In this document: positions 11,115 through 46,676 of the stretch, piece after piece
Position numbering within the stretch: position 1 is the first letter of the stretch
Layout: the number at the start of each line of letters is the position of its first letter
Source: Candidatus Peregrinibacteria bacterium HGW-Peregrinibacteria-1
GTDB taxonomy: Bacteria > Patescibacteriota > Gracilibacteria > UBA1369 > LOWO2-01-FULL-3
Direction of reading: 5' to 3'
Length of the DNA: 64,000 nt
NCBI GenBank assembly: GCA_002839505.1
Contig: PGYE01000001.1
Coordinates: 895,995-959,994 of the forward strand
Position numbers and translations under genes: made by a program
Notes under the pieces: generated by a model
Seen by the model: the letters and a program-made list of their open reading frames with translations, nothing else
Told to the model about the DNA's origin: nothing
Databases searched by the model: none

Positions 11115-11945
11115 ATGGCAGACGAAAATCAAGATCAACAAAATCAACCATTATCTCCAAATCCTTCACCATACCCAGCAAATCCACCCGTACAACCAGC
11201 ACCAACGGTACCAAGTGTTCCGCTCGTTGAAGTTGAAGCTGAACCTCCACAAAATCTAAACTCAGAACCCGCTGCAGGTTTAACACCGATTACGGAGGAT
11301 GCACCCGTTGTAGATTCCCCGCCACTTCCTGAAAACACCCCTCAAGACGATGTGAAAATTACATTTGATGAAAATACCGCCCCCGAAACCAATTTGCCTG
11401 AAACCAACATTCCTGAGACCACTATGCCAGAGGTACCATTGGAACAACTCGATCCTATATCAAATAGTACGAGTCCTCAGCCCTCAACACCAGAAACCCC
11501 ACTAGACGCCACTGAACCTCAACCCCTAACCCCAGACAATCTTGAAGACCAATTCCGTGCGGAATTCGCCATCGAGGATCAAGCACCAACCAAATTTTTC
11601 ACCACAAAAAAACTGATAATCTTGATAGTTGCAATTATTTTGATCGGTGGAATTACCGCAGCACTATTGATTTTAAAACCATTTTCCAAAGACTCCACCC
11701 CCTCTGACACAGCTCCGAACATAACTTCACCGTTTCAGGAGAATGAAAATAATAACAGCATAGTTACCCCTGAAGAAGAAATAAACAGCGAGCTCGAAAA
11801 CATACTGAACGACTCAATAAATACCGATCGTCCGTCAGAAGATCCCAACGACATCGACCCAAATGCTCCACCAAATCTCACCGGAGACACCGATGAACCG
11901 GAAGCTCCGGTCACACCAACAAATGGAGCCGGCCCACTGAGATAA
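11115..11945 (+). CDS. Pro/Glu-rich single-pass membrane protein of unknown function
   Basis: 276 residues: a long, disordered, Pro/Glu/Thr-rich N-terminal half with a short repeat (PETNLPETNIPETTMPE), a single hydrophobic segment near residue 170 (KLIILIVAIILIGGITAALLIL), and an acidic, Pro-rich tail. With no signal peptide, the first half is probably cytoplasmic and the tail external. No domain is recognised. The strong terminator directly downstream separates it from the pilT operon. Confidence 0.7.
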   Translation: MADENQDQQNQPLSPNPSPYPANPPVQPAPTVPSVPLVEVEAEPPQNLNSEPAAGLTPITEDAPVVDSPPLPENTPQDDVKITFDENTAPETNLPETNIPETTMPEVPLEQLDPISNSTSPQPSTPETPLDATEPQPLTPDNLEDQFRAEFAIEDQAPTKFFTTKKLIILIVAIILIGGITAALLILKPFSKDSTPSDTAPNITSPFQENENNNSIVTPEEEINSELENILNDSINTDRPSEDPNDIDPNAPPNLTGDTDEPEAPVTPTNGAGPLR

Positions 11946-11953
11946 ACTACCTG

Positions 11954-11979
11954 AAAGCCCCTTAATGGGGCTTTTTTTT
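11954..11979 (+). terminator. Intrinsic terminator
   Basis: AAAGCCCC (11954-11961) pairs with GGGGCTTT (11967-11974), with a short TTAAT loop, and is followed by a run of T to 11979. It lies 8 bp past the stop codon of the Pro/Glu-rich membrane protein gene. Confidence 0.9.
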
Positions 11980-11991
11980 GAAGCTAATTTG

Positions 11992-12000
11992 TGCTATAAT
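11992..12000 (+). promoter_or_regulatory. Extended -10 promoter of the pilT operon
   Basis: TGCTATAAT at 11992-12000, identical to the element at 10497. No clear -35 at the right distance. The leader to the pilT ATG at 12020 is about 12 nt. Confidence 0.65.
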
Positions 12001-12019: not shown

Positions 12020-13066
12020 ATGTATAAATTAGCAAAAATATTCCGCACCGCCGTAAAGTATCGTGCATCCGACATTTACATCTCCACTGGTGTAAAACCA
12101 ACTCTTCGCATAAACGGAGACCTTGTCTCCATAGGTGAACACCCCGAGCTTACCAAAAAAATGGCAGAAGAATATCTTTTGGAAATGTTAACCCCAAATC
12201 AAAAACAATTCTTCGAACAAAACCTCGATCTCGACTTTTCAGTTGAAATAGACACCATTGCCCGCTTTAGGGTCAACATGTTTGTTCAACGCAAAGGAAT
12301 TGGAGCCGTATTCCGCTTAATCCCAGAAAAAATACAATCCATTGATGAACTCGCCCTGCCAAACCAACTACGAAAAGCCATTCAGTTCAAAAATGGCCTT
12401 GTTGTCATCACCGGACCAACCGGATCAGGTAAAACGACTACTTTAGCCGCCATGGTTAACGAAATAAACAAACTACAAAGAAAACACATAATAACCATTG
12501 AAGACCCCATTGAATACACCCACCAAAACAACCAATCAATCGTCCAACAGCGTGAAGTCGGAACCCATACCAACTCCTTCAGCAAAGCCCTTCGCAGCGC
12601 ACTTCGTGAAGCTCCCGATGTAATTCTACTGGGGGAAATGCGTGACTACGAAACAATCAGACAAGCCATCACGGCCGCTGAAACTGGCCACTTGGTTATC
12701 GCCACTCTCCACACCCGAGGTTGTGCCAATTCCATCAATCGTATTATCGACTCTTTCCCAACCAATCAACAAAACCAAATACGATCACAGCTATCCGAAA
12801 GTCTCCGTGCTGTATTCTGGCAAAACTTGATAAAAACCCGCGATGGCAAAGGCCGAATTCCCGCAACCGAAATAATGTTCGTCAACAATGGTATTGCCAA
12901 CTTAATTCGTAAAAACTCCACTCATCAAATCAATTCCGTCATTGAAACCAGCAGCAAAGAAGGAATGCAGACAATGAAAAAATCGCTTGAAGACCTATAC
13001 AATGCCGGACTGATAACTCAAGAAGACACCTTGGCCAATATGCCTGTTGAATTTAGAACATCATGA
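12020..13066 (+). CDS. pilT: Type IV pilus retraction ATPase PilT
   Basis: Hexameric ATPase that powers pilus retraction. I start at the ATG at 12020 (MYKLAKIFRTAVKYRASDIYIS), just after an extended -10; the longer frame would begin inside the terminator. Signatures in order: the N-terminal ASDIYISTGVKP block, Walker A GPTGSGKTTTLAAM, EDPIEYTHQN (Asp box), VILLGEMRD (Walker B) and ATLHTRG (His box). Length 348 is normal for PilT. The assembly ATPase PilB and the remaining pilus genes are not adjacent; the pilNOC operon starts about 9.5 kb away on the other strand. It shares an ATGA overlap with the first VirB2-like gene, so retraction and those membrane proteins are translationally coupled. 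Confidence 0.93.
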   Translation: MYKLAKIFRTAVKYRASDIYISTGVKPTLRINGDLVSIGEHPELTKKMAEEYLLEMLTPNQKQFFEQNLDLDFSVEIDTIARFRVNMFVQRKGIGAVFRLIPEKIQSIDELALPNQLRKAIQFKNGLVVITGPTGSGKTTTLAAMVNEINKLQRKHIITIEDPIEYTHQNNQSIVQQREVGTHTNSFSKALRSALREAPDVILLGEMRDYETIRQAITAAETGHLVIATLHTRGCANSINRIIDSFPTNQQNQIRSQLSESLRAVFWQNLIKTRDGKGRIPATEIMFVNNGIANLIRKNSTHQINSVIETSSKEGMQTMKKSLEDLYNAGLITQEDTLANMPVEFRTS

Positions 13067-13599
13067 TTAAAAAACTAAAAATAATTATACTCGCCACCGC
13101 AGTGATTTGCTTTGGAATCAATTCCGCAATCACAGCATCAGCGAGCCAAACCGACCTCAGAAACTACCAATTCAACGGAAGTGAATTACTAAGAGTCGAT
13201 AGTGAGACTAAGATCGAAGAATATGGACGAAGTAAATCCGTATCCTCTGTCATCATGGAAATTATAAAATACGCCACCAGGGTAGTCGGAACAATAGCGG
13301 TAATAATTTTGATTATCGGAGGCTTAACCATGGTTATTGCCCAAGGCGATGAGAACACAATCTCCAAAGGAAAAGATATCGTCAAATATGCCGTCATCGG
13401 CCTCATCGTAACATTCCTTTCCTATGTAATTGTCACCTTCGTTCAATCTTTCGTCACAACAGAGGTGATCGACATCGGCACCGACAGAACTCCCTCCGAA
13501 TTCAACTCTACCACTCCTGAAGGAAAGGATTCTCCTACAAAGGAGGAGCCAATAGACCCACCCCCACTACCCGATTCCACATCTACTCCAAAGCCATAA
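13063..13599 (+). CDS. VirB2/TrbC-like small membrane protein 1
   Basis: 178 residues. Signal peptide (IIILATAVICFGINSAITASAS), a linker with charged residues, then two adjacent membrane segments separated by a short polar turn: TIAVIILIIGGLTMVIAQGDENTISKGKDIVKYAVIGLIVTFLSYVIVTFV in halves, and a Pro/Thr-rich tail. This signal-plus-two-helix layout is that of VirB2/TrbC pilin subunits. ATG at 13063 overlaps the pilT stop by 4 nt. No VirB4 or VirD4 ATPase is near. Whether it forms a pilus, a membrane scaffold, or something PilT-linked is unknown. Confidence 0.75.
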   Translation: MIKKLKIIILATAVICFGINSAITASASQTDLRNYQFNGSELLRVDSETKIEEYGRSKSVSSVIMEIIKYATRVVGTIAVIILIIGGLTMVIAQGDENTISKGKDIVKYAVIGLIVTFLSYVIVTFVQSFVTTEVIDIGTDRTPSEFNSTTPEGKDSPTKEEPIDPPPLPDSTSTPKP

Positions 13600-13614
13600 C
13601 ATAAAACGACCCCG

Positions 13615-14298
13615 ATGAAAAAATTTCTCTGCACCATCATCACTACGCTAATACTACTAAGCAACTTATCTCTTTTGACCTATGCTGCCGAGTCTGACTC
13701 CCCTCCCGCTGGAGAGGATACTATAATCGGCAATAAAGAAGACCAGGCCAAAGCTGCATTTCCATTTGCTGATGTCACAGACACACCGTGTATTACTCCA
13801 GAACAACAAAAGAGTTACATCTACACCATAAGCGAAGAGCCATTAATACCCTACCCAGAAGAAGCACAAGAGGGTACCACCGTCGACTTTCAACGCTTCA
13901 CCTGTTATCGCAACACCTATAGTGTTCCGAAAGATGGTGGAGGCCGAATCACCTACACCTTCCTCGGACGATCCTGCTCTCAAGGGGCTATACAAGCTGC
14001 TCAAGCTAATCCGCAATTCAGTTTTTCTTGTCAAGAAGTTGGCATCATGCTTTCAAAAGGCGGAACCAGTCTAATTGAAGGATACATCGCAACTATATTT
14101 CAATGGGCCGGAACAATCGTCGTCGTATTATCCGTTCTCGTCATCACTATCAGCGGTATCCAAGTATCCGCCGCCGGAAGTGACACCCAAGCAATTGATT
14201 CCGCCAAATCACGAATCGTAAAATCTATTGGAGGTATTGCAATTCTCTTCCTAGCCTGGATAATTCTCAAGACAGTCAATCCCAACTTTTTCACATAA
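13615..14298 (+). CDS. VirB2/TrbC-like membrane protein 2, with extra Cys-containing domain
   Basis: 227 residues, the longest of the five. Signal peptide (LCTIITTLILLSNLSLLTYAAES), then an extracytoplasmic insert of about 120 residues containing several Cys (CITPEQQ, FTCYRNTY, GRSCSQG, SFSCQEVG), which could form disulfides, then the paired helices (GTIVVVLSVLVITISGIQVSA and IGGIAILFLAWIILKTV) joined by a polar SDTQAIDSAKSRIVK turn. It is 15 nt after the previous gene. The Cys-rich insert is unique to this copy and may be the externally exposed specificity domain. Confidence 0.72.
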   Translation: MKKFLCTIITTLILLSNLSLLTYAAESDSPPAGEDTIIGNKEDQAKAAFPFADVTDTPCITPEQQKSYIYTISEEPLIPYPEEAQEGTTVDFQRFTCYRNTYSVPKDGGGRITYTFLGRSCSQGAIQAAQANPQFSFSCQEVGIMLSKGGTSLIEGYIATIFQWAGTIVVVLSVLVITISGIQVSAAGSDTQAIDSAKSRIVKSIGGIAILFLAWIILKTVNPNFFT

Positions 14299-14745
14299 AT
14301 GAAAACTATAATTGTAAAAATTAGTCTCATCCTCTGCTTGCTTGTCGCGCCCGCTAGCGCCTTTTATGCCGAAGCTGCCAGCAACTATCAGCATCCAACA
14401 ATCCCTCGTATCGACACATTACCAGGACAATATAGCGGAGTTGATGAAAACAATAGACCAGTACTAAGAGATAATCTCACAGAGCAGACCCTACCGCGTC
14501 TCGCAATCATCCTCACTGGACTTGCCGGCGCAATAACCCTACTAATGGTGGTCATAGCAGGTGTCAGATTTGCAACCAACTACGGAAATGACGAACAAAT
14601 TACCAGCGCTAAAAACCAACTGATCATTTCTCTTGTCGGATTTTTGATCGCCATTCTCGCCTACACCGCAGTTAGAATCGTCGTAAATATTAACTTCAAT
14701 GAAAACAACAGTTCCAACGCAATTCAAACCGAAACCTCGACATAA
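14299..14745 (+). CDS. VirB2/TrbC-like membrane protein 3
   Basis: 148 residues. Signal peptide (IVKISLILCLLVAPASAFYAEA), short linker, then two helices (LAIILTGLAGAITLLMVVIAG and LIISLVGFLIAILAYTAVRIVV) around the polar turn NYGNDEQITSAKNQ. The [ST]-A-K-x-x-[IL] motif in the turn is shared with copies 2 and 5. Starts directly after the TAA of the previous gene (TAAATG, zero spacing). Confidence 0.72.
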   Translation: MKTIIVKISLILCLLVAPASAFYAEAASNYQHPTIPRIDTLPGQYSGVDENNRPVLRDNLTEQTLPRLAIILTGLAGAITLLMVVIAGVRFATNYGNDEQITSAKNQLIISLVGFLIAILAYTAVRIVVNINFNENNSSNAIQTETST

Positions 14746-15156
14746 ATGAAAAAACTATTATCCACATTATTGGCTATGATCGCAGTCGCAAGCAGCAGCT
14801 TGATCGCCTCCACGGCATTCGCTGCAACAACCTGCGAATATGGAAATTACTATGATTACCAACAAGAAACTTGCGTATCCTATGTTCCAAGTTTCAACGG
14901 CGACAATATTGCCCTGCCCGATGTCTCCCTTGAAGGAGGAATCGGTGTCGCAATCCGAACAATATTTGGCTGGTCGATACTTATTGCCCTTGTAGCGATA
15001 GTCTACGCCGGAGTTCTGCTCCTTTTGGCTCGTGGAAACGAAGAAGAAGCCGCAAAAGCAAAAAAAACAATCACCTACCTGATTGTAGGCATGCTAATTA
15101 TGGCCGGAGCATATGGAATAGTAGCCGGAGTATCACAATTTAATTTTTTCAATTGA
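14746..15156 (+). CDS. VirB2/TrbC-like membrane protein 4
   Basis: 136 residues. Signal peptide (LLAMIAVASSSLIASTAFA), a short Cys pair (TTCEYGNYYDYQQETC), then helices IALVAIVYAGVLLLLARG and YLIVGMLIMAGAYGIVAGV around the turn NEEEAAKAKKTI. Again zero spacing to the previous gene, which implies strict stoichiometric co-translation. Confidence 0.72.
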   Translation: MKKLLSTLLAMIAVASSSLIASTAFAATTCEYGNYYDYQQETCVSYVPSFNGDNIALPDVSLEGGIGVAIRTIFGWSILIALVAIVYAGVLLLLARGNEEEAAKAKKTITYLIVGMLIMAGAYGIVAGVSQFNFFN

Positions 15157-15551
15157 TGATTAAAAAACACCTACCACACATATTAATAGTCCTTACCATC
15201 ACACTTTTTTTAGCATCCCTGCCGGCATTCGCCAGTGAGTTTAATATAAATCAATACTGCCCAATCAACAGTCCGTTTTGTGAAACAACAACAAACAGAG
15301 CCGACGCCGCCACCTCAACCATCAACCTCCTACAAATTCTTTCCCGAGGTCTATTATATTTTGCCGCCCCCGTAGCAGTGATCATTATTGTTATCGCTGG
15401 CCTAAAAATGAGCGCCACCAGTAGCACTCCCGAATCACTTGAAACCAGCAAAAAGACCCTCATATGGGCCCTCGCAGGTCTTGCCATCGTCATTCTATCC
15501 TACTCTATCGTTCGAATAGTTATCAGCTTCACCATAAAAGCCGCCGGATAA
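15156..15551 (+). CDS. VirB2/TrbC-like membrane protein 5
   Basis: 131 residues from the ATG at 15156, which overlaps the previous stop as TGATG; an in-frame TTG at 15153 is a less likely start. Signal peptide (ILIVLTITLFLASLPAFAS), a Cys pair (YCPINSPFC), then helices FAAPVAVIIIVIAGLKMSA and LIWALAGLAIVILSYSIVRIVI around the polar turn STPESLETSKKT. It is the last gene of the pilT operon and ends 1 bp before the convergent metG stop. Confidence 0.72.
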   Translation: MIKKHLPHILIVLTITLFLASLPAFASEFNINQYCPINSPFCETTTNRADAATSTINLLQILSRGLLYFAAPVAVIIIVIAGLKMSATSSTPESLETSKKTLIWALAGLAIVILSYSIVRIVISFTIKAAG

Positions 15552-15552
15552 A

Positions 15553-17058
15553 TCAAACCTTATCTAGCCTTGGAAACAAAATATCAGGCTTTTGCACCTT
15601 GAACCCCTTTTGCAAATCCTGTCCCAGCTGCGAAAATGAAACATTCGATTCTTCCCCTATAGCAACCAGAATTTTCGCCCCCACCCCCGGCATAACCACA
15701 CCTAGCATCCCTCCAATATTTTTCAAAACAAATATTAAATTACCAAGAATCTGGTTCAACATTGCATTCTCTTCTTTGGCCATCACCCAGGGCTTCATAT
15801 CATCAATATACTTATTCCCCCAGTCCACCATATCAAAAATCACCTCACAGCCCGCCTTTAAATCATATTTTTCAAACAACTCCACCACCTTATCTTTAAA
15901 CTCTTCAAATTTCTCAACCACACTACCCTCCACCGTAATATCAGGGATCACCCCCTCATTATATTTTTCCAACATCATCAAAACCCTATTAACCAAATTC
16001 CCAATACCATTAGCCAGCTCGTTATTATAAACCTCCAAAAACCGCTCTCGACTAAAATCACCATCATCTAAAGTTGGGATTTCCTTCAAGAGATACCAGC
16101 GCACCGCATCACAACCAAACTCCTCCACATAAATAAACGGATCAATCACATTTCCCAGACTTTTCCCCATTTTCACACCCCCACTCGTGATCATCCCGTG
16201 AACATTAATCGCCTTAGGAACCTCCAATCCCAACGACAACAACATCCCAATCCAGATTCCAGCATGAAAACGCAGAATATCCTTCCCAATAATCTGACTA
16301 TCCGCCGGCCAGAACTTCTTGAATAAGTCCCCATCTTCAAACCCTAACGCCGTAATATAATTCGTCAAAGCATCACACCAGACATACATCACATGATCGG
16401 GATCATTTGGCACCTCAATACCCCACGGCAAAACTTTCTTCGGTCGCGAAAAACTAACATCAAAGAGCCCCTCCGCCATCATATTCAAAAACTCTCTTTT
16501 TCTTCCCTCAGGACGAATTTTCACCACATCTTTCTCAATCAAATCTCCAATTTGATCCGAATATTTAGAAAGCCGAAAAAAATAATTCTCCTCCTTCAGT
16601 AAAACCGGTTTCTTCAAATGATCGCGACACATGCCATCTTCACTCAAATCCTTTTCCAAAACAAAAGCCTCGCATCCCACACAATACAACCCCTCATAAC
16701 TATCCTTATACAAATCACCATTATCCATCAACTTCACCCATATCTGTCTCACTAAATCCTTATGTCTCAACTCGGTCGTCCGGATAAAATCATCATTTGA
16801 AATATTCAGCACTTCCACCAACCGTTTAAATTTTGCCGCATTACCATCAACAAACACGCCAACATCCACACCCTCCTCCTTTGATTTTTCATAAATCTTC
16901 ACGCCATGCTCATCCGTACCCGTCAGAAAATATGTCTCATGCCCCATAAACCGCGAAAAACGCGCTAACGCATCTGCCTGCACCAATTCCAAAGCATGCC
17001 CCACATGAGGACTCCCATTCACATAAGCAATTGCCGTTGTAATATATCTTTTATTCAT
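15553..17058 (-). CDS. metG: Methionyl-tRNA synthetase
   Basis: Charges tRNA-Met for initiation and elongation. Start at the ATG at 17058 (MNKRYITTAIAYVNGSPHVGHA); the open frame extends upstream only by a non-conserved stretch. HIGH motif is HVGH (18-21); the class I lysine loop is KMGKS in GVKMGKSLGNVIDP, a variant of KMSKS. Zinc-type Cys residues sit in YCVGCEAF with a C-x-x-H partner later. At 501 residues it lacks the C-terminal tRNA-binding (Trbp111-like) domain. It is the last gene of the type IV pilus transcription unit. Confidence 0.95.
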   Translation of the reverse strand: MNKRYITTAIAYVNGSPHVGHALELVQADALARFSRFMGHETYFLTGTDEHGVKIYEKSKEEGVDVGVFVDGNAAKFKRLVEVLNISNDDFIRTTELRHKDLVRQIWVKLMDNGDLYKDSYEGLYCVGCEAFVLEKDLSEDGMCRDHLKKPVLLKEENYFFRLSKYSDQIGDLIEKDVVKIRPEGRKREFLNMMAEGLFDVSFSRPKKVLPWGIEVPNDPDHVMYVWCDALTNYITALGFEDGDLFKKFWPADSQIIGKDILRFHAGIWIGMLLSLGLEVPKAINVHGMITSGGVKMGKSLGNVIDPFIYVEEFGCDAVRWYLLKEIPTLDDGDFSRERFLEVYNNELANGIGNLVNRVLMMLEKYNEGVIPDITVEGSVVEKFEEFKDKVVELFEKYDLKAGCEVIFDMVDWGNKYIDDMKPWVMAKEENAMLNQILGNLIFVLKNIGGMLGVVMPGVGAKILVAIGEESNVSFSQLGQDLQKGFKVQKPDILFPRLDKV

Positions 17059-17136
17059 GACTCCGATATTACAAATCATCATCAATAAACACAACCAAAA
17101 ACCGAAAGAAACCTCTAATCCCTCAATCAATAATCA

Positions 17137-18306
17137 TCAACCCTCGTTAGTACTGTACAGAGAAAAATTGAAAACCGGAGCATGACTATCGCGCCCGACC
17201 ACCACATCAATACTCTGCCTAATCCCACCCTTCTCTCCATCCACCGAAATTTCAGCAAACTCTCTCACCGTATTTTTATCATAAGTTTCCACTCGGAAAT
17301 ATATCCTTGCCGCCCGCATTCTTGCCTCCAAAGTTGGATATTTCTTCACACTCAAAACATCCGGATTCATCAAATTAGTCAAAGTCAGATAATTCAATCC
17401 AGTAGCATCAAGCCCCACATGGTCATCAATGAAATTCTTAATAGAATAACAACTACTCTTTGAAATAAGCTCGCCTCCGCTATACACATAGTGATCGCGC
17501 GCCTCTGTCTGCTGACAATTCAAAGATCCCCCATCACTAAGAGGCCTATGATAAACATACACATTACACCGTATTCTATCGCTTATCCTGTCATCTTGAA
17601 GTATCGACTCACTGCAATCTGTCGTACCAAACCAAGATGGACTCATCGCATCCGAGGAAAATTCTTCTCCCGTGCTTCTATTCTGCAAGCTAGAAACCGC
17701 CGTAAAATCATGGATTGAATTAGTTACCAATCTTCCATCAACCTCCTTCATACCAAACAGCTTCCATCGCAAAACATCCCAACCCGAAAGCATCCCGACA
17801 TCAATGTCCAAATCCGTAGCCGGATTAAATTTCGTAAAAAATTCCACTGTAAAATTCTCTACCGGAACCACCACCTCATTACCATTGTCGTCAACATCCA
17901 CTGCAAACATTGGTAAGGTCAATGTCTCATTAAGCTCCAAGAAATCATAAAGTTTCTCCTCCGGAACATCACTCAAATCATAATCCTGAGGATCAAAACA
18001 GGGGTAAGCATTACACTGATTTTTTATCGAAAAAACATATCCTGCCGGCAAAACACCTACAGACTTTTGGTCAATTTCATATCCCGGCAATCGCCTATCC
18101 AATAAATAAAGAGCCTCCTCCACCCCCGCTTCCGCCGCATAGTAAGCTTGACCACTATCCACCATTCTTCTGGTCAAACCAGTCTCCCTCAAAATCAAAA
18201 CCGACAAAATCATTGAAATCGCCATCAACACACCCATAACTAATAGTGCCACCACCAACGCCGAACCATCCTTTTTGCAAAAATTAAATTTCATTCGTCT
18301 AATCAT
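17137..18306 (-). CDS. PilX-like pilus assembly protein
   Basis: 389 residues. The start KDGSALVVALLVMGVLMAISMIL followed by AYYAAEAGVEEALYLL is the PilX N-terminal signature (G-S-A-L-[VI] and the AAEAG helix). The rest is a long, mostly beta extracytoplasmic domain with Cys-containing loops (CNAYPCFDP). Its ATG at 18306 overlaps the preceding stop as TAATG, so it is translationally coupled to the minor pilin. PilX-type proteins act as minor pilins or adhesins at the pilus tip; the large C-terminal domain fits an adhesive role. Confidence 0.82.
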   Translation of the reverse strand: MIRRMKFNFCKKDGSALVVALLVMGVLMAISMILSVLILRETGLTRRMVDSGQAYYAAEAGVEEALYLLDRRLPGYEIDQKSVGVLPAGYVFSIKNQCNAYPCFDPQDYDLSDVPEEKLYDFLELNETLTLPMFAVDVDDNGNEVVVPVENFTVEFFTKFNPATDLDIDVGMLSGWDVLRWKLFGMKEVDGRLVTNSIHDFTAVSSLQNRSTGEEFSSDAMSPSWFGTTDCSESILQDDRISDRIRCNVYVYHRPLSDGGSLNCQQTEARDHYVYSGGELISKSSCYSIKNFIDDHVGLDATGLNYLTLTNLMNPDVLSVKKYPTLEARMRAARIYFRVETYDKNTVREFAEISVDGEKGGIRQSIDVVVGRDSHAPVFNFSLYSTNEG

Positions 18307-18911
18307 TATTTGTATATTCGGCTTGAAATAGTTGTTCTCAAAATCACATCACTCCTTTCATCCTCCACCAATCCCACCTTCATAACCATCGTTACCTTCG
18401 GCTGAAACTGAATAGCATCTAAATAAACATTCTCCAATCGATATGGATCCCCTACCGGAGAAACATAGAAATCCATCTCCTTCACCACAACACTATCCAA
18501 TTCCTCCTCTCCATCAAATTCCATCCCAAACTTTTCATCAATTTCTCTTTTATTCTTATCGCTATCCTCAATAAAAATGGCTCCCTCCTCAGGATTAAAA
18601 TAAATCGTGCTCAAATCTCCACTCTTATCAAAAATCCTTAAATTTTCATTACTCCCATTGTAAGAAGGCTCATAAAGCAACTCCCCCTCCACAGGATAAT
18701 AAACCTCGCCATTTCTGACTTCATCACTTATCACCTCGAATATTCTTCGCGCCTGTGAATAAACCGCCCGATACTCATTCGCACTTCTCTGATCACGGAT
18801 TATATAGACATAGGCCCCAATCAAAATGGAGGTAAAAACAGTAAAAATTGCCACTGAAACCAGCATTTCCACCAGCGTAAACCCCTTATGATTTTTATTC
18901 AAATTCATCAT
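18306..18911 (-). CDS. Prepilin-like protein (PilW/GspJ type)
   Basis: 201 residues with a prepilin leader (HKGFTLVEMLVSVAIFTVFTS): cleavage after Gly, Phe+1 and Glu+5 conserved, as needed for processing by a PilD-type peptidase, which is not in the window. The following AYVYIIRDQRSANEY...ARRIFEVISDEVRNGEVYY resembles PilW/GspJ. Sits between a PilV-like gene and the PilX-like gene, the usual order of minor pilins. Confidence 0.82.
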   Translation of the reverse strand: MMNLNKNHKGFTLVEMLVSVAIFTVFTSILIGAYVYIIRDQRSANEYRAVYSQARRIFEVISDEVRNGEVYYPVEGELLYEPSYNGSNENLRIFDKSGDLSTIYFNPEEGAIFIEDSDKNKREIDEKFGMEFDGEEELDSVVVKEMDFYVSPVGDPYRLENVYLDAIQFQPKVTMVMKVGLVEDERSDVILRTTISSRIYK

Positions 18912-18912
18912 A

Positions 18913-19512
18913 TTAATTCTTCCAATTTGTTAACAAGGTTTCCAGCACAACCCTTTCAAGCTTGTCCCCCTTAGGATAACTCACCACCGCCCTCACCAGC
19001 ATTAAATCATCACATTCATCTCGGCCCCGATACTCTTCATAATCAGGGTTAGAGCAAGCATCAAGAAATTCAACATACCGATAATAAGTACCCTCCACTC
19101 CAACACCACTTACCAAAGATGCCTCCAGATCCAGCTCGTCAATTTCAAATACATCAAAAGGCAAAACACCTCGCGCATTTACTCCCGAATCCGCCGATGA
19201 AAATCTCCACCCCTCCTCCTTCAAATTTATTACATACCTACTCCCCACACGAAACTTCGGATACAAGCCCGCCTCATCATCCCCATTGAAAGGCAAATTA
19301 TTCAACCAATTGGTATCACGAATATTGCGTACAGCTTCGACTCCCTCTTGAGCCAAATAATAGGATTTCAACACATCCAAATTCATCTTGTTCACCTTCA
19401 AAAGCCCCACCAAAATGCTTGTAGCTGTCACAATGGCAACACCCAGCACCATAATGCCAATCATCACCTCAACAAGACTAAAACCCTCTTTGTTAACAAA
19501 TCCTCGTTTCAT
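18913..19512 (-). CDS. Prepilin-like protein (PilV/GspI type)
   Basis: 199 residues with leader KEGFSLVEVMIGIMVLGVAIV (Phe+1, Glu+5) and the helix continuing YYLAQEGVEAVRNIRDTNW, which is the usual PilV/GspI feature (A-x-E-G-[VI]-E-A-x-R). The C-terminal domain has a Cys pair (DACSNPDYEEYRGRDEC) that may be a disulfide. Spaced 1 bp from the next gene. Confidence 0.82.
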   Translation of the reverse strand: MKRGFVNKEGFSLVEVMIGIMVLGVAIVTATSILVGLLKVNKMNLDVLKSYYLAQEGVEAVRNIRDTNWLNNLPFNGDDEAGLYPKFRVGSRYVINLKEEGWRFSSADSGVNARGVLPFDVFEIDELDLEASLVSGVGVEGTYYRYVEFLDACSNPDYEEYRGRDECDDLMLVRAVVSYPKGDKLERVVLETLLTNWKN

Positions 19513-20088
19513 TTAATTAAGATAAAAACTTTTTGAAAAATTATCGGAAAAACTATCGCCATAATAAAAAATCACCTCGAGTTTTTCATCGGCAAGCACT
19601 TGATCGTACTTCCTCACACCCCCAGGCGGCTCAAAATAAATCATAAACTCCTTCAACTCACCGCTCCTCTCCCCCGTCACCGACAAAACCTTAAACTTAT
19701 CATCTCCAAACATCTTCGTTTCAACCAGATTGACCTCATCACAACCGTTAACCTTGAAATCTCGTATGACAGGATCCCACTTCCTAAGACTCACATAATC
19801 CATCTCGACACTAAAAAATCCCAAATCCTCTCTATATAAAACCCCATAGCACTTAGCAACTGCCCGATCTTCCAAATCACCACCTCTACCCAAATCTCCC
19901 AGGAAAGTTTTTTCCTGCATCTCCTTAATTTGAGAACCAAAATCATCAATTGACAGCGACAACATCGCACTCTGCCTATAACTGTTATAGCCTCCAATTC
20001 CCAGCACCACCAAGACTCCCATTATCGCTATCACAACCAATAACTCGATCAAAGTGAATCCTTTTTTTTGTAATTTTTTCAGCAACAT
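19513..20088 (-). CDS. Prepilin-like protein (PilE/GspH type)
   Basis: 191 residues. Leader QKKGFTLIELLVVIAIMGVLVVLG is the best conserved prepilin signature in the window. The C-terminal domain is beta-rich with two Cys (AKCYGVLY, NGCDEVN). It could be the major pilin or a GspH-like minor pilin; with three prepilins in a row and no other candidate nearby, this remains open. Starts just downstream of pilC. Confidence 0.82.
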   Translation of the reverse strand: MLLKKLQKKGFTLIELLVVIAIMGVLVVLGIGGYNSYRQSAMLSLSIDDFGSQIKEMQEKTFLGDLGRGGDLEDRAVAKCYGVLYREDLGFFSVEMDYVSLRKWDPVIRDFKVNGCDEVNLVETKMFGDDKFKVLSVTGERSGELKEFMIYFEPPGGVRKYDQVLADEKLEVIFYYGDSFSDNFSKSFYLN

Positions 20089-20099
20089 AATTCGAATTA

Positions 20100-21386
20100 T
20101 TAACCAACATTTCCGCTCAAGCTAAAGATTGGCGCCATAATCGCCACCGCCAACAAACCAACAAAAGTACCAACCACCAAAATCATCAAAGGCTCAAAAA
20201 CCGAAGACAATTTTTTGATCGAATTATCCACCTCTCTCTGATACTGCTCCGTAATCTTTGCCGAAACCTTACCCAAACTAGCCGAACTCTCACCAACCCT
20301 AAACATCTGTATCACCTCAACTGGAAACAAATATGTCACATCCTCAAAATTTTTGGAGATCTTTTCACCATTCTTTACCCCATTAATAACCTCCTGAATT
20401 TTCAATTTATAAACCCGATTTTTCAAACCACTACCTGCAATTTTCAAAGCCCTGATCATCGGCAGACCAGCATCAATCAAAAGCCCAAAATTACTGACAA
20501 AACTCAATATCGAAACCTTCCTAAAAAGCGCTCCCAAGACCGGAATCCTCAACTTAAAAGCATCCCATCTCACTGCCCCATAATCACTCTTAATGTAATA
20601 CGCCAGCACCCCAAAACCTGCCACCAAAGTCAAAATCAATATCATCCAATAATTAGCAAAGAATCCCTGCATACCTATCAACATCTTAGTCACAAAAGGT
20701 AAATCCTCATTAGGAATACCACTCTCTGTCAAAAGCTGTAACAAAGTAGGAAACACCCATGTCAACATCCCAATTCCAACCCCCAGCAACACACACAAAA
20801 CCACTATCGGATAAAACGCCGCCGCAAAAAGTTTCAACCGCAAATCATAACGCCTGTTCAGCTCTTCCGAAAGTTTGAACAACATAACATTCAAACTACC
20901 AGTAGCCTCTCCTGATCGAATTATCCCAATCTCCGACTCATCAAACACCCCCTCAAATCTGTTCATCGAATCAGCAAATTTCGAACCACTTCTCGTATCA
21001 TGTGCAATTGTTCTCAAAATTCTCCTAAATCGCAAATTATACCCCCTCTCCGCCAAATTATCGACAGCCGTCAAAACCGGAACCCCGGCATCCACCATCA
21101 CCGCCAACATATGAAAAAAATACGATCTCTCCTTTAATGTCACCTTCGAATTATCAATCAAAAAATCATTTATCTTAGAAACAACTCCCTCCTTCTCATT
21201 CCGTCGAACACCATAAATTACATCATCTTTTGCAACTTCCTTAACACCCCTAAATTGATCCAACACCTCTTCGCCAAAATCCGCTCCCAATATCAAATAA
21301 TCCATAGCATCATCAAAACCTCTACCATCTTCTTGTCGCATCTGCTCCGGACTTAAACCTTCTTTTCCGTTATTCTGATTATGCAT
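20100..21386 (-). CDS. pilC: Type IV pilus inner-membrane platform protein PilC
   Basis: 428 residues with an N-terminal cytosolic extension of about 75 residues, then two GspF/PilC repeats: YFFHMLAVMVDAGVPVLTAVDNLAERG and SILSFVSNFGLLIDAGLPMIRALKIAG, each followed by the helical domain and membrane segments (FAAAFYPIVVLCVLLGVGIGML; PLMILVVGTFVGLLAVAIMAP). The GESS motif (RVGESSASLGK) is conserved. It connects the motor ATPase to the pilus base. Starts 2 nt after the pilO-like gene. Confidence 0.92.
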   Translation of the reverse strand: MHNQNNGKEGLSPEQMRQEDGRGFDDAMDYLILGADFGEEVLDQFRGVKEVAKDDVIYGVRRNEKEGVVSKINDFLIDNSKVTLKERSYFFHMLAVMVDAGVPVLTAVDNLAERGYNLRFRRILRTIAHDTRSGSKFADSMNRFEGVFDESEIGIIRSGEATGSLNVMLFKLSEELNRRYDLRLKLFAAAFYPIVVLCVLLGVGIGMLTWVFPTLLQLLTESGIPNEDLPFVTKMLIGMQGFFANYWMILILTLVAGFGVLAYYIKSDYGAVRWDAFKLRIPVLGALFRKVSILSFVSNFGLLIDAGLPMIRALKIAGSGLKNRVYKLKIQEVINGVKNGEKISKNFEDVTYLFPVEVIQMFRVGESSASLGKVSAKITEQYQREVDNSIKKLSSVFEPLMILVVGTFVGLLAVAIMAPIFSLSGNVG

Positions 21387-21388
21387 GA

Positions 21389-21979
21389 TTATTGAAAATA
21401 AGCCTCAATTGATAATGAAAACATCACCCTGCTAAGCCCCACACCATCAGAATTTTGAACTTGCACACTGGTAGAATTAACCCTGAAAAATCTTTCATTA
21501 GACTCCAGTCCCCGCAAAAACGCTATTAAGTCAGGATAATTCCCTTCAAATCCAGCATTAATCCTCAAGCTGTTAACCCCTTCATGCTCAGTTGAACCCT
21601 TTGAGAAACTGATCGAATTAAGCTCAATATCATTAGATCTCGAAATAGTCATAACATCACGAATAATCTCATCTTGTTCCAACCTCAAAGGTATTGCACT
21701 CAACGCCAACTCTTTCGCAACATCACTCGTCACATTTAAAATCGACTCAGTTTCCTTGTAATTATCAAGTTCCGCCTTCAATAAAGTTACCCTCTCAGAC
21801 CCCACCTTAATTTCGTTCTTTAAACTATCCACCTCACTACTCACTCCTTTCAAATAAAAGAGATATCCCGCCAATGCCGCCAACACAAGCAACACTCCCA
21901 GCATCATACTAAAAGATTTTTGCAGATGCTTCCCACCATTTTGGATATTATCTCTATCTGTATTCTGTGAATCTAACAT
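21389..21979 (-). CDS. PilO-like pilus alignment protein
   Basis: 196 residues: short cytosolic N-terminus, one membrane helix (MMLGVLLVLAALAGYLFYL), a coiled coil (VSSEVDSLKNEIKVGSERVTLLKAELDNYK), and a ferredoxin-like end (YPDLIAFLRGLESNERFFRVNSTSVQV). That layout, between a PilN-like gene and pilC, is that of PilO. Sequence similarity to known PilO is low, so the name rests on structure and position. Confidence 0.72.
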   Translation of the reverse strand: MLDSQNTDRDNIQNGGKHLQKSFSMMLGVLLVLAALAGYLFYLKGVSSEVDSLKNEIKVGSERVTLLKAELDNYKETESILNVTSDVAKELALSAIPLRLEQDEIIRDVMTISRSNDIELNSISFSKGSTEHEGVNSLRINAGFEGNYPDLIAFLRGLESNERFFRVNSTSVQVQNSDGVGLSRVMFSLSIEAYFQ

Positions 21980-21999
21980 AATAAAATTTAATTACTTTT

Positions 22000-22584
22000 T
22001 TAACGAGCAACCCCTCCATCAACAGATGGAGACTCAATAGAATCCGAAGTAGTCTTGACCTCCAAAGCATCTTTCAAATAATTCAAACTCATCGAAAAGG
22101 TCAACACCTCAGCTCCCGCCTGATCTAATCCTTTCCCGATAGACGGCACAAAGACATCACTAAATTTTGGACTATCATCAAAAGTCTCAATAAAATCGGC
22201 AACATCAAAATAAGGATCTACCGTCAACGGATTGGTCTTCACGCTCAATGACAATCCACCAGAATCATTTCCGGAATATGATAAAATTTGAGCTACATCT
22301 TCTCCACTCGGACCTCTCACAACCTCTCGAATATCACGAATCACCTGAGACCACAACATCGACTCGCTACGCATTCTATCCAATGCCTCCTTCGCCGTTA
22401 AAGCCTGCCCAGCCGCTTCTTCTTGATACAAAAGCACCTCAGCCTGCAAACGCGCCTCATCACTCTTCAAGCTTGCGAAATCCTCGCTAAGTCGGTTCCT
22501 TTGAATCGTAGCAGAAGTAGACATCAATCCCACGATCAGCACAGTCAGTAAGCCGATGTAAAAAAGTTTTGATTTTCCTTTCAT
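22000..22584 (-). CDS. PilN-like membrane protein
   Basis: 194 residues: an N-terminal membrane helix (LFYIGLLTVLIVGLMSTSA), a coiled coil (RNRLSEDFASLKSDEARLQAEVLLYQEEAA) and a small domain including MLWSQVIRDIREVVRGPSGEDVAQILSYSG, like PilN, in which the helix after the coiled coil reads W-[ST]-x-x-[IL]-x-x-[IL]. First gene of the pilus operon. PilM, its usual cytosolic partner, and PilB are not found in the window. Confidence 0.68.
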   Translation of the reverse strand: MKGKSKLFYIGLLTVLIVGLMSTSATIQRNRLSEDFASLKSDEARLQAEVLLYQEEAAGQALTAKEALDRMRSESMLWSQVIRDIREVVRGPSGEDVAQILSYSGNDSGGLSLSVKTNPLTVDPYFDVADFIETFDDSPKFSDVFVPSIGKGLDQAGAEVLTFSMSLNYLKDALEVKTTSDSIESPSVDGGVAR

Positions 22585-41873: not shown

Positions 41874-44800
41874 ATGACTATCCTATCTCCAGAAGATAAC
41901 GATGCTCAGGTCCAACCAGACCAAGAAGCAAAAGTTAATGAATCAACATCACCAAAGATTGAAGGTATTTCTGATGTCATTCGAGGAAAGCTAGGCAGCG
42001 TGCTTAATGGTACAAGCCAAAATGCTGAAAGTAAGGAAGGCAGTACCCTTAATCAAAGAATTACTTCGCTCGTACAATACTTTCGCCGCTGGAGTTACTC
42101 TCAAGGTAAAGTAATCATGCCCGACATTATTGATATAATTTCTAATATCATAAATCACAAAGCCGTTATTGATTCATTTGGTCAATATGAAGATTACGAC
42201 AGGTGCCAAAATTTACTAGAAGCAGAGGCCGTACAGTTTGAATCAACTCTAAAAAAGAATGATAACACAATACGCAAACATCTCACCAGCTGGGGAGTCA
42301 CACCAAAGTTGAACGGTATATTTTTAGATGCTCGCTGGCTTGATAGTGCACTCCACAAAGCTATTACAAAGTTCAATAAACCTCAGAGCGAAAGAGACCC
42401 CAGAAAGCCAGAAGATTTTAGAAAAGCCCAGTTTAAAGCCCTTGAAGAAACCTTGTCAAATGACTTTGAAGGTGATTTAACCCAGATTGCTACAGGGATC
42501 AGCGACAAAAGCTTCACACTCGAAGCAATTAGCTCTCAACTTCTAGCACACCAATCAACTCCCGCAACAACCTTTATCCTCGATAATATTCCAACAAAAG
42601 GATTTCGTAAAATACCTAAAAGAGAAGAGTTTGAAGGTGAAACATATCATATTGAAAAAGAGACAAAACTTAAAAGGAACACGGGACTTACAGTCGTCGG
42701 CCCAAATGATGATCCACGACAACTACCAAAAGGAGTTTTATTAGATAGCAACTTTGGGTACAACAAAGATGGCTCAAAAAGAATCCCCGCACACATCATG
42801 ATTATTGACGACCATGAAGGCTTTGGCCAACTTGTACACGACACCGCCACCATCCAACTGCTAAACATCATTAAGAAAACAGGCTTGGATAGCTCTTACC
42901 AAAATGAAAACGGAGAATATCAAGCCCTTGTCAAGAAGCTTGATGCCGACACGATTCTTTCATCTTGGATCATAAAAAACCTCAATCACCCACTTTTGCA
43001 AAGCTCAGAATTTCGAGAAATATTGAGAAAAATAAGCATATGTGAAGATTTTAAATTAGGCTCAACAATTTTGGCATACGGCGTAAAATCAAGAGATTAT
43101 GTCTATATTATTCACGGAGTCCTAGACCAGTCTATTGAACTTGTTAAAACCAATAAAAGAGAAAAATTAAAAAAAGAAATTGAAGAGGAAGAACAAAAAG
43201 TTGCCCAGGCTGGACACAGCAACAGTGAAAAATTAGAAAAATTAAAAGAATATCTATCTTGGACAAATACCACCCCTCTTGAAAAGGAGGATTTTGAACT
43301 AGTATTGAACATTATGCATCAAGCACTTCCTTCAATAATCACAACTCCATTCGCATTTGATCATATTCTTCAGACTGCTTATCAGTCTGAGAGAGAGACC
43401 TATGATCAAATCTCGAAAGGATATGAGGCAGGAGAGTTTGAAATAGCTGGCTCAATGTATGACAAGGATTTACTAGTAATTTCAAGTGCAAGCGGCACCC
43501 CTCTCCCTGAGTTTAAAAACAGACAAGGTTTATACATATTTTTGAGAGGACAAGAACATCTTAATCGCGAACTTGTTCTTACAAAAGATGGCAACTCATA
43601 TGATCTGGCCACTAATGCAGAAAACATGAAAAGTCTGCTCAAATATGACTTTGCCTCATTAGCCAACATGATTAAAACTGCTGAACAGGTGCACGTTTCA
43701 CACCTAATTATGAAAAAACAAAGCGAAATCACTGCATCTAGTGACCCCGAAAAAACAAAACTTCTAGAATATGAACTGGAACAGCTACAAAGACATTTTC
43801 AACTCAACAAGGAGGGTGAAGTTTGGAGAAGCAGAACTCAAAACATGGCCTGTGCATTCAGCTATTTGCCCGAACATGACATCATGAGAATCATCGTTGA
43901 TTGGAAAAAACAATCAACAAAACAAAAAAAGAAAGGAGATTCCAAGACAAGCTCAAAATCTTCCATGCCAGCCCTTGGTGATTTGCCTGCAATTGAAGAC
44001 AGAAAACTAAAAGTTACGAAAGATGATTTTAATGCACTATTCGACAACTACTCCTACACCCCTGAAAACTTAGTGAAGCTGTTTGAAGAAGATTTCGGCA
44101 CCGACTTTGACAGCGATGTACAAACTGCACAATTTGACACATTACGAGATCACGTTCTTCAAGTTTTACATCAATATGAGGTCTTCTTTTCTTACAACAA
44201 TTTACCAGCACGAATTACTCCCAAGTTCATGAGGCTTACCCTACTACTCCATGACATTGGTAAACCAACAGCTGTTAAGCAAGGTGAAAAGCATTTACAG
44301 CACGAGAAAACACTACCAATTTTGGAATCCACCTTTGAAGCACTTGGCTTTTCCAAAGAAGAAATTGCTCTAGCCAGCGCATTAGTTGAAGAAGACCCTA
44401 TCGGCAAATATATGTTAGATAAAAGCTCATTAGACGAATGCCTTGAAACAATAAGAAAACAAGCCGGGAAAACATCGTTAGAACTAAAAGATTTTTATGA
44501 TCTATTAATGATGTTTTACATGTGTGATTCTTCATCATACACAGCAAAACCAAAGCCCGGCAAACCATCCCCACTAGACAAGCTATATCTTCTAGATGAT
44601 GCCAATAGAGTAATCAGCTTTGCGCCAGCTAAAGAACAAAAAGTCGATGATTTAAGTGCGGCAATCGAAACATACAGTCGACTAGATCAAATTTCCTCAG
44701 TAGACAGCTTGGAAGAGTACATCAATGCTAACAGAGAACAAGTTGAACAGCATGCTCAGAAAATCACGAAAGGCAGTTTCAATCAACAAATGCAGCAAAT

Positions 44801-46676
44801 GAAAAGTTTATTTGCCAAAAACCAACAACAAGCCAATGCAATAGCCTGGTATGTATATAATCACATGCATGACTCAATGGAAGATCCCAATAGAGAACCA
44901 TCACTAGCAAACATTGAAAAGTATCTTGCAGACGACGCATTGATGAAAAAAGCTGTTGAAACAGTGACCAACATCTGTGCAGAAGAAAACATGGATTTGC
45001 AATTCAATCTAATGTCTCTTTTCTTCAACAGCAACCCTGCATTATATGTTGCAACGATGAAGAGAATGACTTTTGAGATTTCCCCAGCACTATCTAATGA
45101 GAACACCACGACAAAAATTGATAAGCTACTAATAAATTATCCCGGAAGCTCCCTTTATGTAGCACATCAACTGGCAGATCGCCTAGAAAAAGAACTAATT
45201 CCAAAGATGCTCGATACCCATGCCACCGATTTATCAGGATTATTAAAGATGATTGCTTCGGGGGGAATTAAAAACGCTAAAGAGATTGGATATCGCTATG
45301 TAGAACGAAAAGGTGATGATTTCAAATTAGCCGGATCTCTAGCAGTTTTCACCTATCTGGGAGCATTTTTTGATGACGCAGATATTTTCATCAACATTGA
45401 TTCCGACTTCTTAGAGGAACAGTATGAGAAAAATCCAGATTCGATGTGTTATTACAGCGAAGATTTTGTTGTCAAACCACGAAGAACTGCTAATTACAGA
45501 ACTGCAGCACAAAGAGCAAGTTTTCGAGAAAAATTTGCTGATGTAATGAAAAGACCAGATGCAAAACACTATCTTGCATACAAGATAGCTCACAGCATCT
45601 TACAAGAAGTCATCGCTCATGGAATTGACATTCAGAATTTAAGCTCGGCCCAATTAGAAAACTGGTTTATTCGCTATCTAGAAAACAATAGTTCCGGAAC
45701 TCTTGCTCCTGTTTCAAGACTGGGAGGTAGACCCGAAGGAAGGTTAAACCTTAGTGTCCCCCTTGATAAGTTAAAAATAAGAATTCCAAATTATTCAATT
45801 GATCAATTTATTTTGGGACTAAAAAAACAAAAACAAGAAGCAGAAAAAACACAGAACACTGATATTTTAAAACGAATAAAATACCTGACCAGCATATTGA
45901 TCGGCGTTGTTGGATTCGAACCAGGACTTACCCTAGAAGATCTAGAAGCCCGCATTACTCCAGAAATGAAGAAAACAACACTCAAAGACATAATCAAGGA
46001 AGCAGTAGAACGCTCCATAGCCTCATCTGAGGCAGAAAAAGCTGCAACAATGCAGGCATTTTTGAAAGACTTTGACACAAGAGTACAAGTTTATGATGCG
46101 GAAATGCGCAAAGCTCCAGTAAAACTATACTACAAATCCGTACTACAGCAGTCGGTTGACAGTGATGTAAGAAGCTTCTCAAACTTAAGATTCTTAGTGG
46201 TGCCAAAAAAGAATGAATGCGAAATTATCGATCCATTACAGACTGAAAGCGAAAGGCAAATGTTTGCGTATTACTTGCAGCAAGAACACGGCATCAAACC
46301 TGAAAACTTAGAACTCAAACAAGACCGCATAATCATTAAAAATTGGGATGAATCCTTAGATCTTGTTAAAATCAAGATGAGCTTCATTCAAATGGACAAA
46401 GCAGGTATGCAAATTCTTAGAAATAAGGCGACAACCTTTTTTGAAGAGTTAAAGTTAAGCAACCTCGAAATAGCCCCTGAGTTCGAATCGTTAAAAACGA
46501 TAATTGATGACACCATACTACGCAAACTGACTGATAAGATATCGTTAATTCGGGATGCAATGCAATCAGGCAATGAAAGTAAATTAAATGGTGTAAAAAT
46601 AGGCTTTTTGCAAAAAAAACTTGGATTAAATGAAGAACAAACTAATATGGTACTAAGCTTAATGACAAAACAATGA
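41874..46676 (+). CDS. Giant (1600 aa) HD-domain protein of unknown function
   Basis: The largest gene in the window. No signal peptide or membrane helix. An HD phosphohydrolase-type domain is visible in the middle: FDTLRDHVLQVLHQYE, then LTLLLHDIGKP with H793-D794, followed by HLQHEKTLPILESTFEALG and further helices; HD enzymes hydrolyse phosphoesters, often nucleotides. In the N-terminal third IMIIDDHEGFG (about 308-318) and KKLDADTILSSW (about 354-365) faintly recall DHH-family metal motifs, but in the wrong order. Two coiled-coil stretches (REKLKKEIEEEEQKVAQAG; TKLLEYELEQLQRHF) and a basic Lys/Ser linker (KKQSTKQKKKGDSKTSSKSS) separate parts. The C-terminal 600 residues are helical and unfamiliar. 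It overlaps the next gene by 4 nt (ATGA). Nucleotide-processing or effector-sensing role is inference. Confidence 0.75.
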   Translation: MTILSPEDNDAQVQPDQEAKVNESTSPKIEGISDVIRGKLGSVLNGTSQNAESKEGSTLNQRITSLVQYFRRWSYSQGKVIMPDIIDIISNIINHKAVIDSFGQYEDYDRCQNLLEAEAVQFESTLKKNDNTIRKHLTSWGVTPKLNGIFLDARWLDSALHKAITKFNKPQSERDPRKPEDFRKAQFKALEETLSNDFEGDLTQIATGISDKSFTLEAISSQLLAHQSTPATTFILDNIPTKGFRKIPKREEFEGETYHIEKETKLKRNTGLTVVGPNDDPRQLPKGVLLDSNFGYNKDGSKRIPAHIMIIDDHEGFGQLVHDTATIQLLNIIKKTGLDSSYQNENGEYQALVKKLDADTILSSWIIKNLNHPLLQSSEFREILRKISICEDFKLGSTILAYGVKSRDYVYIIHGVLDQSIELVKTNKREKLKKEIEEEEQKVAQAGHSNSEKLEKLKEYLSWTNTTPLEKEDFELVLNIMHQALPSIITTPFAFDHILQTAYQSERETYDQISKGYEAGEFEIAGSMYDKDLLVISSASGTPLPEFKNRQGLYIFLRGQEHLNRELVLTKDGNSYDLATNAENMKSLLKYDFASLANMIKTAEQVHVSHLIMKKQSEITASSDPEKTKLLEYELEQLQRHFQLNKEGEVWRSRTQNMACAFSYLPEHDIMRIIVDWKKQSTKQKKKGDSKTSSKSSMPALGDLPAIEDRKLKVTKDDFNALFDNYSYTPENLVKLFEEDFGTDFDSDVQTAQFDTLRDHVLQVLHQYEVFFSYNNLPARITPKFMRLTLLLHDIGKPTAVKQGEKHLQHEKTLPILESTFEALGFSKEEIALASALVEEDPIGKYMLDKSSLDECLETIRKQAGKTSLELKDFYDLLMMFYMCDSSSYTAKPKPGKPSPLDKLYLLDDANRVISFAPAKEQKVDDLSAAIETYSRLDQISSVDSLEEYINANREQVEQHAQKITKGSFNQQMQQMKSLFAKNQQQANAIAWYVYNHMHDSMEDPNREPSLANIEKYLADDALMKKAVETVTNICAEENMDLQFNLMSLFFNSNPALYVATMKRMTFEISPALSNENTTTKIDKLLINYPGSSLYVAHQLADRLEKELIPKMLDTHATDLSGLLKMIASGGIKNAKEIGYRYVERKGDDFKLAGSLAVFTYLGAFFDDADIFINIDSDFLEEQYEKNPDSMCYYSEDFVVKPRRTANYRTAAQRASFREKFADVMKRPDAKHYLAYKIAHSILQEVIAHGIDIQNLSSAQLENWFIRYLENNSSGTLAPVSRLGGRPEGRLNLSVPLDKLKIRIPNYSIDQFILGLKKQKQEAEKTQNTDILKRIKYLTSILIGVVGFEPGLTLEDLEARITPEMKKTTLKDIIKEAVERSIASSEAEKAATMQAFLKDFDTRVQVYDAEMRKAPVKLYYKSVLQQSVDSDVRSFSNLRFLVVPKKNECEIIDPLQTESERQMFAYYLQQEHGIKPENLELKQDRIIIKNWDESLDLVKIKMSFIQMDKAGMQILRNKATTFFEELKLSNLEIAPEFESLKTIIDDTILRKLTDKISLIRDAMQSGNESKLNGVKIGFLQKKLGLNEEQTNMVLSLMTKQ

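Follow-up and report, generated by a model that had tools for sequence, protein, structure and literature searches.

Tandem arrays of divergent VirB2-like pilin genes are known from Patescibacteria. In the portions of one survey that we consulted, 441 such arrays of 2-11 genes with a mean identity of 25% are reported and interpreted on the model of antigenic variation, 1,135 patescibacterial assemblies have VirB2-like genes close to virB4, and the components of the type IV secretion system (T4SS) of Gracilibacteria are often found away from virB4 (Quinonero-Coronel et al. 2025, PMC12102498). The archaeal Ced system works with type IV pili to import DNA, using a pilin of VirB2 fold and an ATPase like VirB4 (PMC9905601). 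In a Saccharibacterium, type IV pili and a T4SS are both essential; the role of the T4SS is described as completely unknown, with DNA uptake and effector delivery as proposals (PMC11665869). We analyzed a window of 64,000 nucleotides (positions 895,995-959,994 of the 998,424-base, single-contig genome of Candidatus Peregrinibacteria bacterium HGW-Peregrinibacteria-1) in which pilT is followed by five consecutive genes, here W1 to W5, for two-helix hairpin proteins of the T4SS_pilin family. Positional orthology across the bacterium's taxonomic order indicates that W1-W5 are five ancient orthologous types in a fixed order and are not interchangeable. We favor, with modest confidence, a reading in which they would form a hetero-oligomeric VirB2-fold module of a dispersed patescibacterial T4SS, energized by VirB4 and cotranscribed with PilT. 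The genes in question are the following.

12020..13066, plus strand: pilT, the type IVa pilus retraction ATPase (ATG start at 12020; TIGR01420)
13063..13599, plus strand: W1, a T4SS_pilin hairpin protein of 178 amino acids (PF18895, 40.4 bits)
13615..14298, plus strand: W2, a T4SS_pilin hairpin protein of 227 amino acids with an N-terminal extracytoplasmic domain and four invariant Cys (PF18895, 34.9 bits)
14299..14745, plus strand: W3, a T4SS_pilin hairpin protein of 148 amino acids (PF18895, 33.0 bits)
14746..15156, plus strand: W4, a T4SS_pilin hairpin protein of 136 amino acids (PF18895, 27.0 bits)
15156..15551, plus strand: W5, a T4SS_pilin/TrbC hairpin protein of 131 amino acids (PF04956, 33.7 bits; PF18895, 30.3 bits)

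All five proteins scored above the gathering threshold of Pfam family PF18895 (27.0-40.4 versus 26.6 bits), and W5 also exceeded the cutoff of the TrbC/VirB2 family PF04956 (33.7 versus 27.9 bits), bearing out the VirB2/TrbC-like assignment made in a first-pass annotation of this DNA. That annotation had also described five consecutive genes of divergent sequence, each with a signal peptide and a hairpin, and had placed Cys in copies 2, 4, and 5. Both descriptions held: read by eye, each protein has a signal-peptide-like start and two helices around a short polar turn, the hairpins share approximately 23-38% identity, and the mature parts contain Cys at positions 59, 97, 121, and 139 of W2, 30 and 43 of W4, and 35 and 42 of W5. 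W1 and W3 have one Cys each, within the signal peptide. The four Cys of W2 are invariant across nine orthologues (alignment A1), those of W4 are kept in some orthologues only, and those of W5 are not conserved. An AlphaFold2 model of W2 (predicted local distance difference test [pLDDT] score, 69) placed beta strands at residues 69-147 ahead of two long helices joined by a short turn; a W5 model (pLDDT, 67) contained two 38-residue helices with a short turn. A sequence search for solved-structure relatives of W5 returned none. The best NCBIfam relative of all five hairpins was the Mycoplasma integrative and conjugative element (ICE) pilin-like family of Mbov_0395/MMCAP2_0565 (NF045849; E values of 4e-8 to 3e-4). 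Unlike members of that family, W1-W5 fall below its cutoff (21-33 versus 40 bits) and have no ICE or relaxase context in this genome, in which no relaxase search was made.

Comparison of the hairpins between genomes separated the five types by position. When a hairpin was compared with those of another genome, its top match fell at the same array position in 897 of 1008 cases; scores between hairpins of the same position (170) were twice those within an array (80). A tree was built from 115 hairpins (23 genomes, 12 coded families; 73 columns, many forks unresolved), and on it the array position label changed 4 times, the minimum for five labels, against an average of 70.1 after shuffling; the W2 and W5 groups were fully supported, W4 had 91% and W1 43% support, and W3 did not fall on a single side of a branch. 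A position-specific motif before the hairpin is kept at each array position, and position profiles built within the order recovered W1-W5, in order, in a genome of another order (G049). The published reading of patescibacterial arrays would make W1-W5 a stock of pilin variants that serves adaptation to hosts or antigenic variation, by analogy with VirB2 of Bartonella and Anaplasma. We consider this highly improbable here. Its precedent is the set of 441 arrays (2-11 genes each; mean identity, 25%) in the consulted portions of PMC12102498, and the N-terminal regions and C-terminal tails of W1-W5 are indeed variable; against it, the five types are older than the order, a single gene order is kept without sign of recent duplication or exchange, and the motifs before the hairpin persist. 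Recent lineage-specific copies, as in an antigenic-variation VirB2 array, did not appear in the 115-row tree with its 4 label changes. On positional orthology, we rejected antigenic variation and recent tandem amplification for this clade, in which the variant-repertoire explanation is largely refuted.

To survey the locus, PilT loci were gathered from the genomes of relatives and W2 orthologues were sought by profile search across the class; the resulting locus counts are hand tallies over related genomes and not independent events. Of 33 genomes from the order, counting the one that contains the window, 32 had W2; the W1-W5 order was the same in every readable family, with the exceptions of one unlabelled position in G074 and in G136 and a surplus W1-like gene in G163. 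With the five kinds and their arrangement preserved throughout the order, it is probable that W1-W5 are constant components of a single membrane machine and not interchangeable spares. Natural fusions join W3 to W4 in G016, G053, G074, and G120 (families f3 and f22) and W4 to W5 in locus L063, which suggests that the products of neighboring genes touch. In an alignment built for the W4-W5 fusion, W5 was matched to the W4 half. The five fixed types and the fusions lend indirect support to the multi-subunit envelope structure that the first-pass annotation had pictured. Outside the order, family f12 has the five types ahead of metG and lacks pilT there (clearly in G049 and partly labelled in G021 and G009). 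Outside the class, W2 searches gave weaker, mostly hairpin-only matches in 26 genomes (best E value, approximately 1e-17); therefore, the W2 type is untraceable beyond the class. A different recurring array was seen in f12 (L165, L166, L167, L168, and L174), in which a large secreted-looking protein of 650-830 amino acids is followed by two or three genes of family PF18895 and there is no linkage to pilT.

The linkage to pilT is common and incomplete. Upstream DNA was readable for 32 arrays, and in 26 of them, from 7 of the 11 families of the order, pilT lies directly upstream or one gene away (21 G-coded genomes, including the window's, and L061, L062, L064, L066, and L070; families f1, f2, and f21-f25). 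In f24 and f25, an unrelated gene stands between pilT and W1. In the rest, pilT is elsewhere or missing: it is not upstream of the array in f3 (G016 and G053), f4 (G045 and G114), f26 (G163), or f27 (G171). The contig of G003 begins at W1. Within the order, conservation of the pilT-five-gene arrangement, which the first-pass annotation had left to be checked, extends to every readable family for W1-W5 and is partial for pilT. That annotation had also named two outcomes that would speak against it, genes scattered and unlinked to pilT and a VirB4 gene next to each array elsewhere. Arrays are unlinked to pilT in a minority, scattering was not found within the order, and VirB4 was not found next to each array; in one genome (G046), it is separated from such an array by approximately 4.5 kb.

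The first-pass annotation had proposed that the structure is driven by, or regulated with, PilT. As a driver, PilT itself would extend or retract a W1-W5 appendage, and the shared operon with its ATGA overlap, together with the upstream pilT of the 26 arrays, speaks for such a role. Some secretion systems are served by PilT-like ATPases (DotB/TraJ), which also counts in its favor. The window protein, however, is a canonical PilT (TIGR01420, 458 bits versus a cutoff of 319) whose DotB family score of 163 lies below the cutoff of 463, and its closest solved chains are PilT, e.g., 3jvu/3jvv. The genome has a full type IV pilus and no other PilT, and intact arrays occur without adjacent pilT in four families of the order and in another order. 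G163, a 95%-complete genome, keeps all five types and has no PilT above the TIGR01420 cutoff; likewise, no PilT exceeds it in G005, G018, and G028, all of which retain VirB4 and the W2 type. Arrays kept in such genomes indicate that PilT is not required for the array, and a PilT-driven appendage is improbable. PilT as a DotB/VirB11-like secretion ATPase was ruled out on the family scores.

In a genome set chosen to include PilT-poor genomes, so that its rates are not population rates, PilT exceeded the TIGR01420 cutoff in 12 of 23 genomes and VirB4 (E <= 1e-30) was found in 21 of 24. The three genomes missing VirB4 (G016, G045, and G191) are drafts, and close kin have it. The first-pass annotation had taken VirB4 ATPases to be absent, which is correct for the window, where we found none, and incorrect for the genome: a single true VirB4 gene lies at 786.6-788.8 kb, 107 kb before the window, scoring above the cutoff of the VirB4-like CD1110 family (NF045971, 366 versus 325 bits) and also matching PF19044. 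Since the array does not require PilT and VirB4 is nearly always present, the economical reading of these gene contents places W1-W5 in a VirB4-type T4SS and assigns PilT to the neighboring type IV pilus.

We also weighed an arrangement in which W1-W5, although built on this hairpin, stand outside any secretion system and act as an envelope scaffold or as an adhesin anchor. The hairpin is indeed employed elsewhere in this genome, for example in a 1587-residue protein with eight PKD domains and in two three-hairpin proteins, and array and VirB4 are not adjacent. The wide co-occurrence of VirB4, its proximity to the array in G046, and the presence of VirB4 near pilins in many Patescibacteria (consulted portions of PMC12102498) count against such a scaffold, which we judge somewhat unlikely. 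The genome has 15 PF18895 domain matches and six such genes beyond W1-W5; VirB4 is linked to none of the PF18895 loci. Three are single genes at 229, 267, and 684 kb. The others, at 571-577 kb (L018:10941-17767), encode the two three-hairpin proteins (six helices each) and the PKD-domain protein, beside nusG/rplK, and this locus is kept across the order (L177, L178, L179, and L180). The three-hairpin proteins (571-573 kb) are candidates for a VirB6/CedA-like channel, a component reported absent from Gracilibacteria in the consulted portions of PMC12102498. At 784.2-788.8 kb (L028:6224-10850), the VirB4 gene is followed, with an 8-base overlap, by a gene for an 802-residue protein without a Pfam or NCBIfam match, possibly a divergent T4SS component.

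The surroundings of the array bear on whether pilT and W1-W5 are expressed together. The flanking features are as follows.

11953..11975, plus strand: intrinsic terminator closing the upstream gene (hairpin of -14.9 kcal/mol, z score of -4.3, then a T run)
11992..12000, plus strand: extended -10 promoter-like site, TGCTATAAT (pattern match; no -35 element claimed)
15553..17130, minus strand: metG, the convergent neighbor of the array (PF09334)
17137..22584, minus strand: type IV pilus cluster of PilX-like, PilW-like, PilV-like, GspH-like, PilC, PilO, and PilN-like genes (PilX_N, N_methyl, T2SSF, and PilO/T2SSM_b matches; the PilN-like label comes from gene position only)

The terminator and the extended -10 site sit between a proline-rich gene (11115-11945) and pilT, and a slightly longer form of the -10 pattern would be expected by chance 0.15 times per window. 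With these elements ahead of pilT, pilT-W5 is probably a transcription unit of its own. The pilT/W1 junction is an ATGA overlap, W2/W3 and W3/W4 abut (TAAATG), and W4/W5 share one base (TGATG), as the first-pass annotation had described in reporting overlaps or zero spacing throughout; the exception is W1-W2, which are 15 nucleotides apart. We took the ATG at 15156 as the W5 start; the mechanical open reading frame begins at a TTG at 15153. The first-pass view of pilT in one operon with the five genes agrees with these sequence features, which support cotranscription. Chance clustering of the five hairpin genes was ruled out by random placement of 11 such genes among approximately 950, which gave 0 runs of five in 200,000 draws.

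W5 ends at 15551, two bases short of the convergent metG end. The array is convergent with metG in the families of the order, except f27, and in most families the array and metG are followed by the pilus cluster PilX-W-V-GspH-PilC-PilO-PilN. The linkage to pilT could be an incidental stability of neighborhood without shared regulation, as metG, an equally stable neighbor, is a housekeeping gene and an unrelated gene intervenes between pilT and W1 in f24 and f25. The overlap of pilT with W1 in the window, and the terminator and promoter-like site that precede pilT, argue against this explanation, and we regard it as unlikely.

The genome has a type IV pilus kit of PilT, two PilB, two PilC, PilD, and pilins, its three T2SSE ATPases being the window PilT and the two PilB. 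Genes for pilins, PilB, PilC, PilM/N, and PilO, named by sequence and gene order, lie at 413 kb. At 310-326 kb (L030), the second PilB adjoins a DprA-like gene near ComEC-C-terminal-like genes (named by eye from sequence), which suggests a pseudopilus for competence, separate from the pilus that PilT serves. The proline-rich single-helix protein upstream of pilT (window 11115-11945; L063 7133-7886) varies fast between relatives and carries MAPQEP tandem repeats in L063. Farther along, a 1600-residue gene (41874-46676) falls within a stretch at approximately 40-48 kb that differs from the rest of the window in its lower G+C content (0.35-0.40) and near-zero GC skew and is possibly acquired DNA.

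In the mechanism that we propose, W1-W5 would be five ancient, non-interchangeable VirB2-fold subunits of a patescibacterial T4SS, exported by Sec, with both ends predicted to lie outside and the short polar loop inside. In the cytoplasmic membrane they would come together as a hetero-oligomer, forming a short pilus or the wall of a conduit, and VirB4, whose gene lies at a separate chromosomal site, would supply the ATPase that assembles and energizes them. PilT would act on the type IV pilus, the remaining genes of which are found both beside the array and at more distant loci, and the shared operon would bring a module for contact or transfer into play together with pilus retraction, which would draw the cell toward a host or take in DNA. 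Such a module may serve host contact, DNA uptake, or effector transfer. Several observations weigh against this proposal. The array (909 kb) and VirB4 (786.6 kb) are not adjacent in this genome. PF02534, a single model that divergent forms could escape, gave no match to the coupling protein VirD4, and no VirB6 family match turned up, although no search was aimed at a VirB6/CedA-like channel. Fusions and synteny are indirect evidence of subunit contact. Foldseek and VIA-align searches with the W2 and W5 models, which are of moderate confidence (pLDDT, 67-69), gave generic helical or spurious matches only and no specific match to a solved VirB2, TraA, or CedA1 pilin; absence of VirB2 from these lists carries no meaning, and the fold searches were not used as evidence.

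The locus resembles the described patescibacterial arrays in its tandem, divergent T4SS_pilin genes (PF18895/PF04956), its MPF-FATA-kind VirB4, and the dispersed components reported for Gracilibacteria. It differs from the arrays in the consulted portions of that survey (PMC12102498) in its fixed orthologous types and order across a taxonomic order, with fusions in places, beside metG, and in its usual position beside type IV pilus genes and, in most cases, its probable cotranscription with pilT. PilT itself matches type IVa pilus PilT in sequence, motifs, and family score, and differs in being placed ahead of secretion-type pilin genes. With archaeal Ced/Ted (PMC9905601), the proposed system shares the character of a domesticated T4SS with a two-helix VirB2-fold pilin and a VirB4/HerA ATPase, and Ced works with type IV (Ups) pili; unlike the one pilin type and defined CedA/TedA channel there, five pilin types and no recognized channel are found here. 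We found no description of the pilT-W1-W5 locus in the consulted portions of PMC12102498 or in other open-licence papers. Tandem VirB2-like arrays are thus already published, and the fixed subunit identity, gene fusions, and pilT linkage seem undescribed.

To our knowledge, every well-studied conjugation pilus consists of a single type of pilin. By analogy with archaeal Ced and Ups pili, W1-W5 might be five obligatory, specialized VirB2-fold subunits, set in a fixed arrangement in the wall of a conduit or short pilus and paired in one operon with pilus retraction, for import of DNA or nutrients in host-dependent bacteria, a possibility that we raise tentatively. Peregrinibacteria of this group are tiny and probably host dependent. 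For this clade, the fixed subunit types argue against the published variation hypothesis and point to a hetero-oligomeric machine. A single operon here would join type IV pili and a T4SS, both relevant to epibiosis, which yields a defined gene set and bears on how Patescibacteria draw material from, or act on, their hosts.

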